From positions 1 through 64,000 of IMG/VR virus record IMGVR_UViG_3300024495_000015: DNA of 64,000 nucleotides. The stretch is one strand, 5' to 3'. Below are positions 31,949 to 62,769 of the stretch, one piece after another; within the stretch, counting starts at the first letter, position 1, and the number at the start of each line of letters is the position of its first letter. A model generated the notes under the pieces. It made no database searches, had not been told where the DNA came from, and was given only the letters and a program-made list of their open reading frames with translations. Source of the stretch: a virus. Both the position numbers and the translations under genes were made by a program.

Positions 31949-32713
31949 TCAAGCAGGTGGATAAAGTGGAGTATTACCAGTAGTAATTCCAGACATTGCA
32001 ACAAGAACTTCGGTCTTGACTCTCATTTCACCTTCAACTCCCATGTAAGTTGTAACCCCAACCCATCCCTCATGAGTTAAAGCGTATGAAGTTCCTTGTG
32101 CTACTTCAATTCCAGCATCAGCAACACCATAAACTGATCTAGCATATCCATCAGCAAGTCTTGCGAATCTTAATATATCACCTGTACTAATTCCAGCACT
32201 AATTGTTGAAGCAAGAGAAATTGTCGTTGCTCCAATGCTATTAATAACAACATTATTACCATTGTTTACTAGAGCATCACCAACAACTACTCCAGTTGCC
32301 CCATTTAAAACACTTGACGAAATAACATTTGTTCCAATTCCAGCAGATGCTGTTGCAGTTCCAGTATATGTAATTGGTGAAAAACTTCTAGCGGCAATAT
32401 TTGCTGCACTGAATGTACTATCGAGAACAGTATACTTAGGTAATTCGCTAATATCAAATTGAACTCCAGAAATAGTAGCACCGCTTAAATTGGAGGTAGA
32501 AGCAATTGAAAGTTGTGTTGCACTTGTAATTCCCACAATTACAGCATCACCATAATAAGTACCCGTTCTAGATCCAAAACGAATAACATCACCAACTGCT
32601 GCAGCACCTGCATTGCCAAAAGTAGTACCACTACCGGTCACAGTCAAAGTTTGATAGTCTAAAGATACTGTACCACCAGAACCTTTAGCATCATTATTTC
32701 CCCAGAGTGCCAT
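31949..32713 (-). CDS. Virion structural protein, Ser/Thr/Gly-rich
   Basis: 254 residues, low-complexity beta-rich sequence (VTGSGTTFGNAG, VGDVIRFGSRTG twice with variation: VGDVIRFG and TGDILRFA). The end, HEGWVGVTTYMGVEGEMR then VLVAMSG, is a pattern typical of cyanophage structural proteins. Two repeat halves suggest a duplicated beta domain. Late promoter at 32748. Confidence 0.68.
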   Translation of the reverse strand: MALWGNNDAKGSGGTVSLDYQTLTVTGSGTTFGNAGAAAVGDVIRFGSRTGTYYGDAVIVGITSATQLSIASTSNLSGATISGVQFDISELPKYTVLDSTFSAANIAARSFSPITYTGTATASAGIGTNVISSSVLNGATGVVVGDALVNNGNNVVINSIGATTISLASTISAGISTGDILRFARLADGYARSVYGVADAGIEVAQGTSYALTHEGWVGVTTYMGVEGEMRVKTEVLVAMSGITTGNTPLYPPA

Positions 32714-33142: not shown

Positions 33143-34843
33143 TTACATTAAAGATCCTTTACCATGTTTGGAAATCATTTGTTGTCTCACAAAATCTAAC
33201 GCTCTTTGGGAGGTCTCTTTATGTCTTTTCATTCTTGCTTCTCTTTCTGCTGGAGTTTCTGGTTTTGATGCAGATTGTTTTGCAGGAGATGTTGAAGAAC
33301 GAGCACCCATTCCACCACGCTCAAGTTGTCTATCCTTCATTCGATCAGAATCTTCTTCAGAAACAGTTTCTGGTTTTCTTTGCTTCATTAATGCTTGTTT
33401 TCTAAGAGTAGCAATCCTAGTGTCAAGAGAAGCTCTTTGTTTTTGAACTTGAAGTTCTTGAGGGGTTAATGCAGTAGAATCTGCGACTGCTTCTTCAACT
33501 TTTTTAGGAATTCTTTCATGTTTTGTTTTTGCAAAATCACGAATTTTTTTCTCACTCATATCATCAACAATTTTAAGAACAGCATCACTTACTTCAGATC
33601 TTGGAGTCTGACCTCTTTTTACCGAAAGAGCAAGTCCAAATATTTTTTGCTGCTGCTCACTAGCAGCTTTTTCATTGATTACTTCCTCAGATACTGCTTT
33701 TTTAATTTTTTTAGCAGCAGTAACAGTTCCAGTAACACCAGATTTTACGCCTTTACCAAATTCAGATGCTCCTTTTGCAGCAACTCTTAGTGCTTTTCCT
33801 GCAGTTTGAGTTGCTGCACGATGCCTTTCCATTCCAGATTGGTATGCTTTTACTGCGCCAAAAATTCCTTTTGCAATTGCATCTCTTACTGGTTTCTTAG
33901 ATGGTTGCTTTTCAACAGCTTTTTTAATAGCAACTGATTTTTTTCTGACAGTTGACGATGCAGGACTTGACTTAAATCTTCGAGTAGTTCCATACTTTTG
34001 AACTGCTGCCTTTGTTGCTTGAGACGGTGCAGTTCCTTTTGGAAGTTTTTGAGGACTTTTCTTTTTACCAAGTAAAGTTCTTGCTTCGTTTAATGTATAT
34101 TCTTCCGAAATTTCAAAAACAAAATTTACAAATTCCTCAAGCCCAAGTTCTTCAATAAGAATATCTAAACCTTCTTCATTTAAACCCTGTTCATAAAAAT
34201 ATTCAGTCGCAATATCAACAGTTTCAGTAAGAACTTCTTCATCAAGTTCTACCATTTCAATCAATGTTCCACCAAGATTTTCAACTGATTCACCTATTTT
34301 AATACCAGACCCAATTGCACTTGTTTTTATTTTATTTTTTACTTGCTTTTCAACAATTTTTTGATTTTCCTTATTATCAACTTTATCGGTAATTTCAACC
34401 AAATCTTCTCTCCAATTGGAGAATCCTTCTTTTGCAACTTTTTTGCTTCCACCCATTTCATCCTTACCCAACCTACCCGCAATTACATCACCTCTAGTTA
34501 CTTTGTCATATGGAGGATAATTATTTGCAAGATTGCCATCATTTGTTTTCTTCGCTTCTTCCATTTTTTGCTTCGCTTTATCTCTCAAAGCCTTCTTCAT
34601 GGATTCTTTTTCATTACCATCCTTGTCAAAATCCAAGTAATCTGGTTTTGCTGCTTCCTTGATACCTTTCTTTTCTCTCATTGCCTTTGCTTTTGCAAGT
34701 GTTCTTTCTCTGGCAGCATCTTGCTCACTTTTAGGAATAGCAGTCACTGCACCAAGTCTTTCTGCAGGTTTACCAGGAACTGCAGATTCAGAAACTTGCT
34801 CCAGATATACTCTGGAAATATCATTCAGAGGATTGGTTGACAT
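33143..34843 (-). CDS. Large basic mosaic protein with DUF3008-like segment and prohead-protease-like sites
   Basis: 566 residues. Parts in order: N-terminal L/I-rich region with VYLEQVSE; YLDFDKDGNEKESMKK; an acidic region (185-250); the site LNE|A at 251-254; then a Lys/Ala/Ser-rich basic region (255-390); a DUF3008-like module (QQKIFGLALSVKRGQTPRSE, KIRDFAKTKHE); and a basic tail. The T4-type consensus L-x-E|A precedes the basic half, so it may be matured inside the head. No enzymatic motif. Confidence 0.6.
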   Translation of the reverse strand: MSTNPLNDISRVYLEQVSESAVPGKPAERLGAVTAIPKSEQDAARERTLAKAKAMREKKGIKEAAKPDYLDFDKDGNEKESMKKALRDKAKQKMEEAKKTNDGNLANNYPPYDKVTRGDVIAGRLGKDEMGGSKKVAKEGFSNWREDLVEITDKVDNKENQKIVEKQVKNKIKTSAIGSGIKIGESVENLGGTLIEMVELDEEVLTETVDIATEYFYEQGLNEEGLDILIEELGLEEFVNFVFEISEEYTLNEARTLLGKKKSPQKLPKGTAPSQATKAAVQKYGTTRRFKSSPASSTVRKKSVAIKKAVEKQPSKKPVRDAIAKGIFGAVKAYQSGMERHRAATQTAGKALRVAAKGASEFGKGVKSGVTGTVTAAKKIKKAVSEEVINEKAASEQQQKIFGLALSVKRGQTPRSEVSDAVLKIVDDMSEKKIRDFAKTKHERIPKKVEEAVADSTALTPQELQVQKQRASLDTRIATLRKQALMKQRKPETVSEEDSDRMKDRQLERGGMGARSSTSPAKQSASKPETPAEREARMKRHKETSQRALDFVRQQMISKHGKGSLM

Positions 34844-34855
34844 CTTAATAAGTAC

Positions 34856-36133
34856 TTACTTTTTTGCCTTATACTTATTTATGAAATTGGTTCCATATGA
34901 CTTTCCTCCAAATTGGAGATATTGTTTATTAGTTCCAACCGATCCTGGAGTCATTTTTGCATAGTGTTTAAATGCACCAAGAGTTCCAACAAGAGTATTT
35001 GGATGTACTTTATCTCTCATTGGACTATTCATTTCTACTTCAGAATATTCCATCAAATCTTTGATCCAAGATTTAAACATATATCCTTCTTCCGTCACAC
35101 ATATCAAATGATTAGTTCCTCTACGCATTACTTCACCAATTAATCCTGTATTTAAATTTTGAATTTTATCGCCTATTTTAAATATTTTTCCCTTTACATA
35201 ATTTTCACGAAGATTTTTCATATCATACTTAGGGGCAATATCCCATAGAGAATAACTTTCCTTTTTAACCTTAGATTTCTTAACTTTCATTCCCTGTCGA
35301 ACAGCATCAAAAAGTGTTTGTGTTTCTCCATCATCTAATGTTTTTGGTGTTCCTCTACGGAAAGAATTAAAATCATTATCTAATACTGCTTTTCTCATTT
35401 TAGATGCAGACATTCCCTCGATACCTTCTGCATCAGCATCTCTTACTCCAGCAGATACAACTCGAATTAAATCAAAATTATATAGTTCTCCATTATATTT
35501 TTGGGCAAGGTTTTCAAATTCTGCCTGACGATCAGAACCCACAACAATATTCACACTAGTATATCCTTCTTCTTGTGCTGCAACAAGAACATCAAAGATT
35601 GTTCTCATATATGGGTCATTAATAATGTTCTCCTCAAAATCTGGGAACATTTTTTTCATGTAAGAAATTTTGATATCAGGATCTAGTGGATTTTTCTTTG
35701 GATCTTGAGTTCTTGAAGGATAAATCTTAATATCTCCACCAACAGAAATCCTCTTTGCCGACTTAAGAAGTTTATCATGACCAATTGTTGGTGGGTTAAA
35801 GCGACCAAAAACAATAGTAAGTGGTGATAGTTCTTCTTCAGGTTGCTCTTCTGGTGCTTGTCCTGATACCGCTTGAGGTTGTGGTGCAGGTGCTTGTGTT
35901 GCTTGAGTTGCTTGAGGTAATTGAGTTTTTGCTTGTTTATTTACTGGTTGCTTTTCTCCCTTTGTCGGTCTACCATCAGTGAATTTAAGTTTCCCTTCTT
36001 CTGTTCTTGCAACTGTTTTGCCAGATCTATCTACCCATCCACCATGACCATCTCCACGCAATCCAAGTTTTTTCGCCTGCATAGATGCTTGCGATTGCGT
36101 TGCTTCTGATAAAAATTGGAAGAAACTCTTCAT
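34856..36133 (-). CDS. Nucleotidyltransferase-like protein with capsid-targeting-like N-terminus
   Basis: 425 residues. The first 11, MKSFFQFLSEA, match the T4 internal-protein targeting sequence pattern (MKTYQEFIAE|A) with the L-x-E|A cut at the same place. A Gln/Pro/Ala-rich linker (65-105) leads to a cytidylyltransferase fold: LTIVFGRFNPPTIGHDKLL with the x-x-G-H nucleotide motif, VVGSDRQAEF and EGMSASKMRKAV (S-x-S/T-x-x-R). The C-terminal third (305-425) is unassigned. NMN- or phosphopantetheine-type substrates are possible. Confidence 0.7.
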   Translation of the reverse strand: MKSFFQFLSEATQSQASMQAKKLGLRGDGHGGWVDRSGKTVARTEEGKLKFTDGRPTKGEKQPVNKQAKTQLPQATQATQAPAPQPQAVSGQAPEEQPEEELSPLTIVFGRFNPPTIGHDKLLKSAKRISVGGDIKIYPSRTQDPKKNPLDPDIKISYMKKMFPDFEENIINDPYMRTIFDVLVAAQEEGYTSVNIVVGSDRQAEFENLAQKYNGELYNFDLIRVVSAGVRDADAEGIEGMSASKMRKAVLDNDFNSFRRGTPKTLDDGETQTLFDAVRQGMKVKKSKVKKESYSLWDIAPKYDMKNLRENYVKGKIFKIGDKIQNLNTGLIGEVMRRGTNHLICVTEEGYMFKSWIKDLMEYSEVEMNSPMRDKVHPNTLVGTLGAFKHYAKMTPGSVGTNKQYLQFGGKSYGTNFINKYKAKK

Positions 36134-36181
36134 ATTGTTTATTTTTATACTTTTATTTATTTTTTTCTGCTTTTATATTTA

Positions 36182-36255
36182 TGGAGAATAGGAGACTCGA
36201 ACTCCTGACATCCTGCTTGCAAAGCAGGCGCTCTACCAGACTGAGCTAATTCCCC
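36182..36255 (-). tRNA. tRNA-Ala (TGC)
   Basis: 74 bases. Acceptor GGGGAAT/ATTCTCC, D arm GCTC...GAGC, anticodon stem CCTGC/GCAGG with loop TTTGCAA, T arm AGGAG/CTCCT with TTCGAGT. It stands alone, 12 kb from the tRNA island, between two virion-type genes. Confidence 0.94.
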
Positions 36256-36265
36256 AAGTTTAGAC

Positions 36266-36323: not shown

Positions 36324-37220
36324 TCAGATAGTTTCAGTAACCATAATTTTCAATGCTTCTTCTCTAGTGTTACCTTGCTCCATCAATTCGGCAAGAGTTG
36401 TATCAAATACATCAACTTCTTCAGTTGCCATTCTTGAAGCAAGTTTTGAAGCACCAGAAGCAACTCCAGATGCAGCTGCTCCTACTGCTTTTTTAACACC
36501 TCTCTTTGTTCTTGCTGCAGTGTACTTAGCACTTTGCTTTGCTTTTCCAGCAACATCAGATGCTGCTTGTCCTGCTTTTCTTGCAGCACTATAAGCACCT
36601 ACTTGCGCTTGAGCGATTTTCTTCTTAATTCTACCTTTAATATCAGCAGCAACTTTTGCTCTCAGTCCTCTTCTCTTTTCAGGATCCTTCGATCTTGCAG
36701 CCATTCCTGCAGCAGGGTGAAGACCTCTCTTTGTTGCATATGCAGCTGCTGGTCTATCAACAGCACGGAACTTTGCTTCTTTTCCAGCTTCCTTTGCTTT
36801 TGCAACTGCTGCTTTACCAGCAGACTTTGCTTTTCCAAGTGCAGACTTAACAGCACCTTTTACTTTAGCAATTTTTTCTGCTCTCTTTTCCTTTCTGACT
36901 ACAGATGCGCCTGCCTTTCTTGCTTGACTTGCCGCTTTTTCTGAAGATTGTGCATACTGCTTTCTTGCCGCAGCACGAGCACTCATATCAACTCTTGCTT
37001 CCGAAAGAACTTCTTCAAAGATTTCTTCCACTTCATCAAAATCATATCCTTCTTCAAGCATTTCATCAATTGTTTCTTCTACAATTGTATCAATTTCTTC
37101 GTCAGTAAGATCTTCAATGCCAGCAAACTCATCTGACATTTCTTCCAACTCATCTCTAAGATCTTCATCATAAATTGCACTATATGCTTCACACAAACCT
37201 CTAAGTTCTTTAGAATCCAT
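36324..37220 (-). CDS. Histone-H1-like basic protein with acidic propeptide-like N-terminus
   Basis: 298 residues. Residues 1-74 are very acidic and contain LCE|A (9-12) and VLSE|A (72-75), both of the T4 prohead-protease form L-x-E|A. Residues 75-265 are Lys/Ala/Arg-rich (GAVKSALGKAKSAGKAAVAK), like histone H1 tails, and the end is acidic again. After cutting at 74 the main product would be a DNA-condensing internal head protein (inference). Late promoter at 37249. Confidence 0.65.
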   Translation of the reverse strand: MDSKELRGLCEAYSAIYDEDLRDELEEMSDEFAGIEDLTDEEIDTIVEETIDEMLEEGYDFDEVEEIFEEVLSEARVDMSARAAARKQYAQSSEKAASQARKAGASVVRKEKRAEKIAKVKGAVKSALGKAKSAGKAAVAKAKEAGKEAKFRAVDRPAAAYATKRGLHPAAGMAARSKDPEKRRGLRAKVAADIKGRIKKKIAQAQVGAYSAARKAGQAASDVAGKAKQSAKYTAARTKRGVKKAVGAAASGVASGASKLASRMATEEVDVFDTTLAELMEQGNTREEALKIMVTETI

Positions 37221-37248: not shown

Positions 37249-37256
37249 TATTTATA
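37249..37256 (-). promoter_or_regulatory. T4-type late promoter fused to a terminator
   Basis: Exact TATAAATA directly after the terminator U-tract (TTTTTTTATAAATA), 29 bases before the histone-like gene. Confidence 0.75.
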
Positions 37257-59420: not shown

Positions 59421-60851
59421 TCACATGAGGTTCTTAACAGCAACTCTTCTGTAGTAGCGGTTCTGGTTGGTCTGAAGACGACCGAGACCCTGATTGGTTC
59501 CTTCTGCAAATGGGTTAGCAACAAGACCATAACGGGTCTTAAAGCCAATCTTAGGCTGGAAGGAGTTCTCACCAACGGCACGAACCATTTGGAGAGGAAC
59601 ATAAGGACAATAGAAGAGTCCAGCGTCATAAGGGGAAGCACCCTTATAACCAACAACATAATACTGGTTACCTGGTGAGGTGTTACCCGCAGTGAGGTTA
59701 GCAGAATATGGGTCAATGTAGACGCGGAATTTGCCCATTAGAGTACCAGCAAAAGTATTGCCGGTGTCATCAACAGACAGATTAGCGTTAAGTGCAGGGG
59801 TGTAGTCTAGAACACCAGCCATGGTTAGTGCTGAAGCAACATCAGCAGAACACATGATGATGTTACCCTTTCCGCGACGAGTTCTTTGTGCGATTGCGTT
59901 AGCATCACGCTCGATTTGGAATAGGAGACCCTTGAACTTCTCAACTGACCAACGACCGTTGGAGTCAACATCGAGGTCGAAGATACCAGCTGTTGCAGTG
60001 TTTTGAACAGCACCCTGTTCAGCAACCTTATAGATGGTTCTGATAACTTCGCGGTTGATTTCAGCAAGAATCTCAGTTGAGAGAATGTTTGCTAATTCCG
60101 CTTCAGCATTCAGACCATGGATTGCCTTGAGGTCTTGAGCGAGTTCTAATGAGTACTCAGCTTTCAGAGCGCGTGACTTTGCAGTAACAGTGACTTTCTC
60201 GATTGAGAATGCCATCTGGTTGAATGCATCACCAGCTGTACCATCAAGGTTTTCTGCGTCGCCAGTAACCATACCCTGACCTACATTGTAGGCGGTTGAG
60301 GTTGCGCTACCAACTGGGTTTAGAACTGATGGGTTGCTTCCTGCTTGTGCAGTAGTACCCATACCAACGCCAACTTCAGTAAATCCTGCAGCCTCATCAA
60401 AACCTGCGTCTTGACCGGAGAATGCAGTATCTACTTCATTGAAGAAGGTTTCAGTTCCGCTTTGGTTGGTATAGCGGGAACGCATTGCGAAGATAAGTCC
60501 AGTAGGACCACTCATTGGTTGAACGCCAGCCAGGTCATAAGCGACCAGGTTGGGCATTGAACGACGAATGAGTGAAATCAGAACTGGATCAAAACCTGCA
60601 GTAGGACCACCAGCAGCGGAACCGCCACCGAAAGCACCACTAGCACCAGCAGCATTACCGCTGTTGGTTGGTGACTCCATGAGCATACTCATGGAACCGT
60701 TGTCGAAAGCAGATTGCTCTCTTAAAAATTTTTCTTGGTTTTCGAGCAGGACAGCGGTTACAGCTCTACGATGAGAATCTTTGATAGGGTCGATACCCTG
60801 ATAATCTAGTAGAGGTGCCCACTTTTCCTGCAGATGCTCAGAATGGAACAT
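59421..60851 (-). CDS. 23: Major capsid protein (T4 gp23-like)
   Basis: 476 residues. WAPLLDYQGIDPIKDSHRRA, then SMSMLMESPTNSG with a likely prohead-protease cut LME|S at 59-60 (T4 cuts after residue 65), then GPTAGFDPVLISLIRRSMPN and RSRYTNQSGTETFF. HK97-type fold expected. It builds the capsid around gp22 and is cut by gp21. Confidence 0.96.
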   Translation of the reverse strand: MFHSEHLQEKWAPLLDYQGIDPIKDSHRRAVTAVLLENQEKFLREQSAFDNGSMSMLMESPTNSGNAAGASGAFGGGSAAGGPTAGFDPVLISLIRRSMPNLVAYDLAGVQPMSGPTGLIFAMRSRYTNQSGTETFFNEVDTAFSGQDAGFDEAAGFTEVGVGMGTTAQAGSNPSVLNPVGSATSTAYNVGQGMVTGDAENLDGTAGDAFNQMAFSIEKVTVTAKSRALKAEYSLELAQDLKAIHGLNAEAELANILSTEILAEINREVIRTIYKVAEQGAVQNTATAGIFDLDVDSNGRWSVEKFKGLLFQIERDANAIAQRTRRGKGNIIMCSADVASALTMAGVLDYTPALNANLSVDDTGNTFAGTLMGKFRVYIDPYSANLTAGNTSPGNQYYVVGYKGASPYDAGLFYCPYVPLQMVRAVGENSFQPKIGFKTRYGLVANPFAEGTNQGLGRLQTNQNRYYRRVAVKNLM

Positions 60852-60903: not shown

Positions 60904-62058
60904 TCAGTTTTTGGCGACTGCCTGAAGAGTTCTTAGGTAGGTAGCCATTTGACCGGAAATTACTTCAGGTGCTGGATCCATACCATCCGACAAAGTTTCA
61001 GTTCTGGCCTGTGGAGAAACTACTCTTGAAGGAAAATATGATTCCTTCAAAGTCTCCAGCTTTTCACGATATTTTGCTTCACTTTCAAACTCAACACTTT
61101 CGGCAAGTGAAGCGAGCTTGTCTTTCTGAGTGTCTGCTAGACCTTCAGCGACTTCTTCAAAGATTCCATCAGCAACCGACTCTGCGAGACGCTTGTTAAG
61201 TGAAATGTTCTTCTCAATTTGCTCGTTGAGTTTTGTCTCCATTTCATCAAGTTTTTCTACCATGCTTTCAAGCACATTATATTTATCTTCAGGGATTGAT
61301 ACATAATGTTCTTCAAAAAGACCCTTCATTCCTGCAAGGAATGATTCGGTCATTTCGGTCTTAAGACCGCTTTCAACTGCAAGAATATTTTCTTGCATCC
61401 ACTCTTCAGATACATACTCAAGGTATGCATCTACGCGCTCCGAAAGTTCAGTTTTAATTTCTTGAACTTCTTCTGCAAGAGCAGCAACATACTGCTCTTC
61501 AAGTGCTTCTTTAATATCAGAAACTTTGGAACGAAGAGCAGCTTCAAAAATGGTTCTTGCTTTTTCTTGGAACTCTTCGGAGAGTTCTTCGCCAGCAAGC
61601 AGAGCATTAACATCTTCTTCGATGCTAAACTCTTCTTCCATTTCTTCTTCTTCTTCTCCTTCCTCTTCTTCCTTCTTTTTGCCTTTCTTACCGCCTTCTT
61701 CTTCCTCTTCTCCTTCCTCTTCTTCCTTAGCGGCTTCTAGGAGCTCTTCATCTTCATCATACTCAAGTTCTTCATCTTCCTTAACACCTTTCATTGCTTC
61801 CGCAGGTTTAGCACCTTTGTTGACAACATCCTTAACTTGCTTAAGGGTTCCTCCAGGTGTTTTAAGTTTTGCAGAATCATCATCTGGACGGTAGTTGGAA
61901 GGATCTGGACCTCCAAGATCTTCCCATCCGCCCGTTTGTCCATCAGGAATATTGCCTGATAGGTTTGGCATTGCTTCTCCAGCCTTTGCATTTGCATTAA
62001 CGGCGGTTTTGGATTGCTTAGTGCCTACTTCCATTTCTTGTAAATCTCCACGAGACAT
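60904..62058 (-). CDS. 22: Prohead core scaffold protein (T4 gp22-like)
   Basis: 384 residues. Runs of Glu and Lys (105-150; EEEEGEEEEEGGKKGKKKEE-like) and long coiled coils (150-330) with several L-x-E|A/S sites (LLE|A, LAE|S) fit the gp22 scaffold, which gp21 degrades. Between gp21 and gp23, the T4 order. Late promoter at 62098. Confidence 0.88.
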   Translation of the reverse strand: MSRGDLQEMEVGTKQSKTAVNANAKAGEAMPNLSGNIPDGQTGGWEDLGGPDPSNYRPDDDSAKLKTPGGTLKQVKDVVNKGAKPAEAMKGVKEDEELEYDEDEELLEAAKEEEEGEEEEEGGKKGKKKEEEEGEEEEEMEEEFSIEEDVNALLAGEELSEEFQEKARTIFEAALRSKVSDIKEALEEQYVAALAEEVQEIKTELSERVDAYLEYVSEEWMQENILAVESGLKTEMTESFLAGMKGLFEEHYVSIPEDKYNVLESMVEKLDEMETKLNEQIEKNISLNKRLAESVADGIFEEVAEGLADTQKDKLASLAESVEFESEAKYREKLETLKESYFPSRVVSPQARTETLSDGMDPAPEVISGQMATYLRTLQAVAKN

Positions 62059-62115: not shown

Positions 62116-62769
62116 TTACAATGAATTTAAAAACTCATTGAATAATTTAATTTTATGTTCTTCTAGTATTCTTTGATCAACTAGAGCATTAATTTTTCTT
62201 TTGGTATTCTCTGCTAATTTCTCTCGCAAAATACCACCATCCCAAATCCACTCTTTACCTTCCATAATTCCCTGAACAAAAGCGTCAGGTGCAGAAGGAT
62301 CTGCAACAATATCTGCTGCAGTTGCAAGCATAAAATCTTCACCAACTTCTTTAAATCCTTTAGTATTTTCTCTTAAAGAACCAATTCCACGAGATGAAAC
62401 ACCAAGAGTCACTCCATCTTTGAGAAGTGATTCGGCAATTTTACCCATTGGAGTGGATAAAATTTGTGCCTTACCAATAAAGTTATTACCACTTTGCTTG
62501 AGTTCTGTAATTTTATGAGAAACTCTATCAAGATTTACAGTAGGTCCATCTGGATGACCTAATTCGCCAAGTGCTCTACCTTTTTGAACATAATTTTCAT
62601 TATAACGGTTAACTTCTCTTTCCATAATTTGGAAAGGATACATTCTACCATTACGATTAACACATTCACTTTGGAGGAAAACTCCCTGAATATAAAGTTG
62701 TTTTTTACCACCTACAGTTTCGGTGATAACTTCTACTTTTTCTACTTCTTCTCTGATAAGTTTCATCAT
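62116..62769 (-). CDS. 21: Prohead core protease (T4 gp21-like)
   Basis: 217 residues. ECVNRNGRMYPFQIM, RALGELGHPDGPTVNLDRVS with the catalytic His, and TLGVSSRGIGSL with the catalytic Ser form the herpes-type prohead protease site. It cuts at L/I-x-E, degrading gp22 and trimming gp23. Overlaps the next gene by 4 bases. Confidence 0.93.
   Translation of the reverse strand: MMKLIREEVEKVEVITETVGGKKQLYIQGVFLQSECVNRNGRMYPFQIMEREVNRYNENYVQKGRALGELGHPDGPTVNLDRVSHKITELKQSGNNFIGKAQILSTPMGKIAESLLKDGVTLGVSSRGIGSLRENTKGFKEVGEDFMLATAADIVADPSAPDAFVQGIMEGKEWIWDGGILREKLAENTKRKINALVDQRILEEHKIKLFNEFLNSL

Follow-up and report, generated by a model that had tools for sequence, protein, structure and literature searches.

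A T4-type capsid-targeting sequence may address a conserved nucleotidyltransferase to the heads of T4-like cyanophages

The window analyzed here is a 64,000-nucleotide stretch (positions 1 to 64,000) of a virus record of 126,158 bases with a T4-like gene set that includes the gp21 protease, the gp22 scaffold, the gp23 capsid protein, a replicative helicase and a RecA-family recombinase. On the minus strand of the window, positions 34856 to 36133 encode a 425-aa nucleotidyltransferase (NTase) of the T4-GC190 family (phrog_395, E 4e-101), a homologue of Syn9 gp184. The protein falls into T4-GC190 by sequence match, the S-PM2 member of the family carries the label GC 190, and T4-GC190 is a core family in 16 cyanophages (PMC3037559). 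Relatives at E ≤ 0.001 were detected in 535 of 50,697 phage records, mostly those of Synechococcus and Prochlorococcus phages, and members of the family are labeled in the records as cytidyltransferase or NMNAT. The best isolate match to the target is S-SCSM1 ORF91 (59.7% over 100%, tblastn), and the S-CRM01 and Cassandra queries each retrieved one locus in viral contigs. A PDB sequence search with the target found no relative, the best match (E 0.81) being unrelated. A tRNA-Ala gene is located at 36181-36256, just upstream of the enzyme gene; in S-SCSM1, tRNA-Ala lies one gene farther upstream.

The protein consists of a short N-terminal region, a module of about 38 residues (residues 14-51; 35981..36094, minus strand) with the sequence LGLxxDGHGGW..., which recurs in kinases and a Cas9-like protein of virions, the NTase core (residues 104-285; 35279..35824, minus strand), delineated by the predicted structure and PDB matches, and a small C-terminal beta domain (residues 306-363; 35045..35218, minus strand; phrog_4808 and predicted structure). 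A homologue of the beta domain is a stand-alone gene, p141, in S-PM2, where it (L083:8288-8563) is labeled NrdB / ribonucleotide reductase A subunit, apparently a naming error. Also in S-PM2, p138 and p139 (L083:4755-6534) correspond to a single open frame of ~591 aa in related contigs, so that the S-PM2 record may hold a frameshift or a sequencing error.

The target protein starts with MKSFFQFLSEATQSQ, where A11 comes after L8-S9-E10. Likeness to T4 IPII and IPIII, together with conservation, suggests that codons 1-10 (36104..36133, minus strand) encode a capsid targeting sequence, MKSFFQFLSE, with a predicted cut before A11. In T4 IPIII, the residues important for targeting are 4 and 7 and those important for processing are 8 and 10, and gp21 cleaves after L/I-x-E (PMC9026906). 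The 10-residue T4 tag brings LacI into T4 heads and is itself removed by gp21 (PMC10229621). The target has aromatic residues at both targeting positions (F4 and F7), L8 and E10 at the processing positions with the small residue A11 next to them, and a gp21-type prohead protease encoded in the same genome (62116-62769); no [LIVM]xE[AGST] site other than LSE|A at residue 10 occurs in the protein. The initial annotation had drawn attention to this N-terminus, with L-x-E|A at residue 10, and had compared it to the tag of T4 internal proteins that gp21 removes. Both observations held: the sequence is present in the 425-aa ORF and conserved in its close relatives, and the tag form is read directly in T4 IPII and IPIII which, translated from NC_000866, start with MKTYQEFIAEA.

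The start M-K-x-F-x-x-F-[LI]-x-E-A, in which positions 3, 5, 6 and 9 vary, was found in 55 of 55 unique close relatives, one of which (L006) is identical to another protein but cut off by its contig, with starts placed at the first M[KR] within the span of 70-150 aa ahead of the GH motif, a rule that biases position 2 toward K or R. In a 67-row alignment, M1, K2, F4, F7, L8, E10 and A11 are each conserved in at least 90% of the rows, and positions 3, 5, 6 and 9 fall below this level. Across 111 unique N-termini, positions 1, 2, 4, 7, 10 and 11 are fixed, conditional on the looser form of the motif by which these sequences were preselected, and position 8 is L, I or F. The loose motif is present in 121 of the 166 unique family members of the retrieved loci; the 45 members without it are 40 DUF6267 fusions of the S-PM2 type and five others (K64-1, 7t3, Cassandra, XG4 and one metagenomic locus). 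When all six frames of the 126-kb record were scanned (minimum ORF length 40 aa) with the pattern M..[FYWH]..[FYWLM][ILVFM].E, three matches emerged, namely, the target, a 106-aa ORF at 65005 (minus strand) and a 49-aa ORF at 113882 (plus strand), the last of which is taken as a chance match. For the target itself, a chance origin of the motif is ruled out by its conservation and rarity. The 106-aa ORF (L239:2005 on the minus strand; MKSFQQFISES...) is kin of S-SCSM1 ORF30 and S-SZBM1_191, which have the tag, yet are outside the reported mass-spectrometry proteins.

The N-P-P-x-x-G-H and S-A-S-x-x-R motifs noted in the initial annotation were located at G110-R-F-N-P-P-T-I-G-H119 (35777..35806, minus strand) and S242-A-S-K-M-R247 (35393..35410, minus strand). 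Six positions of the first motif (G110, R111, N113, P114, G118 and H119) and three of the second (S242, K245 and R247) show no variation across the 67 rows of the alignment. In the predicted model, ten-residue means of pLDDT are mostly 88-95 over residues 104-285, and structural comparison gave Z scores of 12.9-14.6 to PPAT and NMNAT/NadD, upholding the proposed NTase fold with matches to both families. PPAT tops the structural list, tied with NadD (VIA-align: PPAT 3otw, Z 14.6, rmsd 2.7, 150 aligned residues; NadD 4ymi, Z 13.9, rmsd 3.2, 163 aligned residues), and the 41 Foldseek matches with E ≤ 0.001 include 32 NMNAT/NaMNAT, 8 PPAT and one other structure. The target combines the GH and SxxxxR motifs of NMNAT/NadD with the matching predicted fold; given that PPAT shares both, NMNAT/NadD and PPAT are not separable by fold. 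The resemblance to cellular enzymes of both families is distant, with 9-20% identity among the structural alignments listed and curated cut-offs missed: the target scored 15.1 bits vs 164 for PRK08887, 13 vs 341 for nadR, and 14.7 vs the gathering score of 21 for PF01467 (CTP_transf_like). The NCBIfam equivalog and subfamily NTase matches of the target and Syn9 gp184 are NMNAT/NaMNAT models, far below cut-off, with no CoaD or CCT among them.

The predicted fold is that of an adenylyltransferase of the HIGH superfamily. Most likely, judging from the models, it is NMNAT-like, with NMN/NaMN favored over phosphopantetheine as the acceptor; we use this name because of the Foldseek majority and the NMNAT-type NCBIfam matches. 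An enzyme that is packaged via the tag but is PPAT-like, FAD-type, CTP-using or active on nucleic acid ends, so that its substrate is not NMN/NaMN, is a possible if rather doubtful alternative. It would accommodate the top structural rank of PPAT, the weak match of the homologue from jumbo phage 7t3 to a riboflavin kinase/FAD synthetase model (NCBIfam), and the association with DUF6267, as a fusion or as a neighbor, which would fit a repair role. It runs against the NMNAT/NaMNAT identity of 32 of the 41 best Foldseek matches and of the sub-threshold NCBIfam matches, as well as against the G-S-D-R sequence at residues 199-202, which we take to resemble the G-x-D motif of NadD.

The late promoter of cyanophages is NATAAATA (PMC2984593), and the late-promoter motif AATAAATA is located at 36154..36161 (minus strand), 28 nt upstream of the enzyme start. 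Among 55 unique loci, which are related and hence do not represent independent events, 45 have NATAAATA no more than 40 nt ahead of the start, 44 of them at a distance of 27-29 nt; the background is 220 of 11000 random positions (2.0%) and, for the other ORFs of these loci, 116 of 513 starts. Late expression of the enzyme gene therefore has evidence in the form of this promoter motif.

The packaging of the enzyme in the head, which the initial annotation had proposed, is where the published proteomes bear most directly. Purified virions of S-SM1 contain T4-GC190, which is named there as a core protein of cyanophages (PMC3037559); further detections are S-SCSM1 ORF91 in the virion proteome of that phage (PMC9602691), S-SZBM1_140 in virions with 2 peptides (PMC9146016), and S-CREM2 gp154 in virions with 3 peptides (PMC10665884); the latter paper also cites S-CBWM1 for an NMNAT-like protein. 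The virion presence of this family is already published and is not new here; it means that, for relatives, the proposal survived the test of absence from virions. Thus, the virion location has evidence in relatives, and packaging is favored by homologues in four virion proteomes and by the T4-matching N-terminus, with the reservation that two groups of authors, those of S-SCSM1 and S-CREM2, point out that CsCl-purified preparations may still contain carried-over non-structural proteins (PMC9602691, PMC10665884). In the proteome data consulted, none of the peptides began at A11. Term searches of the S-SM1, S-SCSM1, S-SZBM1 and S-CREM2 proteome papers found no mention of a targeting sequence for the enzyme, and the S-SZBM1 paper describes only general cleavage by the gp21 homologue (PMC9146016). 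Among the papers listed in the literature searches, which covered few subscription papers, none was a cyanophage study of head-protein targeting; the one that brought capsid targeting sequences together with cyanophages names the latter just in a reference. The four phages share with the target the same family ('NMNAT' or 'cytidylyltransferase') and contribute virion mass spectrometry; they differ in that their papers invoke no targeting sequence for it.

Similar sequences are found on other virion proteins. Among the 52 proteins of the S-CREM2 virion table (PMC10665884), the NTase gp154 starts with MKNFSSFLTE, the SAM hydrolase gp6 with MKDFDSFLEE, gp13 with MKDLHSFLTE, the kinase gp14, from a GTG codon, with [M]KRFDAFLTE, and gp136 with MQTFSMFFSE; the Cas9-like gp12 contains RFASFMAE|A at residues 18-26, and gp15 has a shorter tag-like start, MNFSEFNES. 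The whole gp12-gp15 block (L243:7704-13331) is in the virion table, with a tag-like sequence at or near each start. Counterparts of gp12-gp15 are present in S-CRM01, S-B68 and S-H34, with like N-termini in most; the poor ones are, in S-H34, those of the SAM-hydrolase homologue (MKNFEEFKDQ), the kinase (MRLSQFNEN) and the counterpart of gp15 (MALNFSEWKDS) and, in S-B68, that of the kinase (MKRLGRLLAE). For the six S-CREM2 genes checked, ATAAATA lies shortly upstream of gp6, gp13, gp15 and gp154, and not of gp12 or gp14.

For the enrichment counts, from which in-frame internal starts and unannotated ORFs were excluded by eye, the pattern used for the six-frame scan had been fixed before the annotated CDS starts of S-CREM2 and S-SZBM1 were scanned. 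In S-CREM2, it matched 4 of the 52 virion proteins (gp6, gp14, gp136 and gp154) vs 1 of 167 others (gp35, regA; one-sided Fisher P 0.012). The counts were 1/48 vs 1/234 (ORF30) in S-SCSM1, where the 48 virion flags are our own count of the record and the paper gives 45 (PMC9602691), and 0/30 mass-spectrometry proteins vs 2/188 others (191 and 192) in S-SZBM1. S-SZBM1 thus gives no support for enrichment of the fixed motif; pooled over the three phages, the numbers are 5/130 vs 4/589 (P 0.012). A second pattern, in which position 4 was widened after gp13 was seen, gave 5/52 vs 1/167 (gp175) in S-CREM2 and 0/30 vs 3/188 (57, 191 and 192) in S-SZBM1. The flexible form, chosen last and after seeing the data, gave 5/52 virion proteins vs 0/167 other CDS in S-CREM2 (P 0.0006), 1/48 vs 1/234 in S-SCSM1, 1/30 vs 1/188 in S-SZBM1 and 7/130 vs 2/589 pooled (P 0.00014), figures that are to be read as post hoc. 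Both misses of this form belong to one small family (S-SCSM1 ORF30 and S-SZBM1_191), and the tag of the packaged S-SZBM1 NTase is one residue shorter (MRFRQFIIE|A). In a strict scan of IMG/VR for the tag (at least 120 stretches; a sample rather than a census), 75 of the 117 usable proteins were T4-GC190 NTases; the remainder include two DUF6267 proteins (Pfam) and, among those tested, many without a Pfam match.

These data bear on the possibility that the protein is an ordinary metabolic enzyme of the infection period, present in virions through carry-over, with an N-terminus that has no targeting role. The proteome authors raised carry-over themselves, the peptide numbers of 3 and 2 are low, and the motif defined beforehand is not enriched in S-SZBM1. 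We nevertheless regard this as improbable: four papers list homologues in the virion proteomes of four phages, the gene has a late-promoter motif, unrelated virion proteins carry a similar motif, and the fixed positions are those required in T4.

Several genes around the enzyme match virion proteins. Two neighbors on the minus strand look, by sequence, like precursor proteins. One putative internal head protein (36324..37220) consists of 74 acidic residues, an LSE|AR site and a basic remainder (charge −29, then +32), with TATAAATA upstream at 37249-37256, and has a weak match of 47 residues to the S-SCSM1 virion protein ORF92. The other (33143..34843), a homologue of S-SCSM1 ORF92 and ORF93, has an acidic part of 253 residues, an LNE|AR site and a basic remainder (charge −14, then +39). 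Of the unique homologues of the two proteins, 10 of 12 and 42 of 51 contain a [LIVM]xE[AGS][RK] site, a loose pattern that in some cases matches elsewhere in the protein. At 31949..32713 (minus strand), there is a homologue, by sequence match, of the S-SCSM1 virion protein ORF95, and 31532-31936 matches S-SCSM1 ORF96, which lacks a virion flag; ORFs 89-93, 95 and 97 around the S-SCSM1 enzyme carry such flags (MK867354). A small ORF at 31348-31602 matches the S-SCSM1 virion protein ORF97 as well as GPTAGFDP, a stretch from the N-terminal region of gp23 that has a similar counterpart in S-CREM2 gp160 and might be a capsid-docking motif.

The head machinery itself is encoded on the minus strand near the end of the window. 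It includes a gp21-like prohead protease, the candidate cutter (62116..62769; phrog_207, E 7e-83; 41% identity to T4 gp21 over 152 columns), a gp22-like scaffold (60904..62058; phrog_237, E 1e-110) that, by analogy with T4, would be the candidate partner of the targeting sequence, and a gp23-like major capsid protein (59421..60851) with a putative cleavage site, LME|SPTN, in its N-terminal arm. That the family could have become a prohead-core protein with a structural or scaffolding role, keeping the NTase fold without catalysis, gains something from its core status in 16 cyanophages and from the absence of gp67 and gp68 in cyanomyoviruses (PMC2984593), such that core proteins could be replaced, but is very unlikely in view of the GRxNPxxxGH and SxxKxR positions, invariant in 67 rows, and the retention of the motif in the untagged Cassandra (NPPTIGH) and 7t3 (NPVHLGH) homologues.

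We consider it probable that the protein is a late-expressed cargo enzyme of T4-like cyanophages, packaged via its tag, trimmed by gp21 and injected, with the activity of a dinucleotide-cofactor adenylyltransferase. The enzyme would be expressed late from a NATAAATA-type promoter; MKSFFQFLSE would act as a T4-type tag through which it associates with the gp22 scaffold core of the prohead; gp21 would cut after E10 and so free the enzyme inside the head, alongside the DNA; the enzyme would be ejected into the next cell together with the genome; and, in the new host, its HIGH-superfamily core would transfer an adenylyl group to NMN/NaMN, producing NAD/NaAD. Beyond expression and virion location, these steps follow T4 biology, and scaffold binding, cleavage, ejection, substrate and benefit are what we infer. 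The closest parallels are T4 IPII and IPIII, with which the target shares the N-terminal MKx[YF]xxF[IL]xE|A, a gp21-type protease, a late-promoter motif and, in its relatives, the virion location; the cargo here is a conserved enzyme, in contrast to the small internal proteins of T4, and its cleavage is only predicted. T4 Alt, compared by description only, is likewise an enzyme that travels in the head and enters the host on ejection (PMC9026906), but its ADP-ribosyltransferase chemistry is unlike that of the target.

More broadly, we lean, with less confidence, towards a T4-like address code in cyanomyoviruses, M-x(1,2)-[FL]-x-x-F-[LIVMF]-x-E at or near the start, that would govern head loading, gp21 trimming and delivery with the DNA of a whole enzymatic payload. 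Its users would be the NMNAT-like enzyme, the APH-like kinase, the SAM hydrolase, the Cas9-like protein and, in some phages, the ligase-like DUF6267 protein; the 38-residue GHG module, common to three of the proposed payload enzymes, may be a second packaging part. Within the literature searched, the new elements are the explanation by a targeting tag and the spread of the tag over unrelated virion enzymes. The tag would offer a simple reason why enzymes recur in cyanophage virion proteomes, where the authors left cargo vs carry-over open. If the code is real, cargo becomes predictable from sequence and, in abundant photosynthetic cells, the first minutes after infection would involve enzymes delivered ready-made. 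The findings also suggest that the T4 tag is a way of carrying diverse enzymes into hosts, and the cyanophage sequences would provide more natural tags for phage-head loading.

The GHG module was found in 251 ORFs of the retrieved loci, 236 of which have the NTase domain; the other 15, among which S-H34 and S-CRM01 are each counted twice, include kinases, Cas9-like proteins or relatives, cut NTase-like pieces and two further ORFs, L257 and L262, that belong to no assigned group. In the three records scanned (S-SCSM1, S-CREM2 and the source record), its sole bearers are ORF91, gp12 plus gp14, and the target, respectively; the tagged S-CREM2 NTase gp154 lacks it, so that the tag occurs without the module. 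DUF6267 is fused to the NTase in S-PM2-type phages, which lack the tag, and adjoins it in Syn9; that a DUF6267-NMNAT pair recycles NAD is only an idea. A sequence search of DUF6267 for a ligase relationship found no match, and in a structural comparison the rows listed were taken up by the NTase domain. DUF6267 proteins with KxDG, EGFV and KxVDR-like motifs, of the kind found in ligases, are encoded at 113201-114079 of the source record (L369, minus strand) and at L082:5037-5999, L172:155-1927, L340:5149-6393 and L335:4534-5685; those of L340 and L335 themselves start with the targeting motif.
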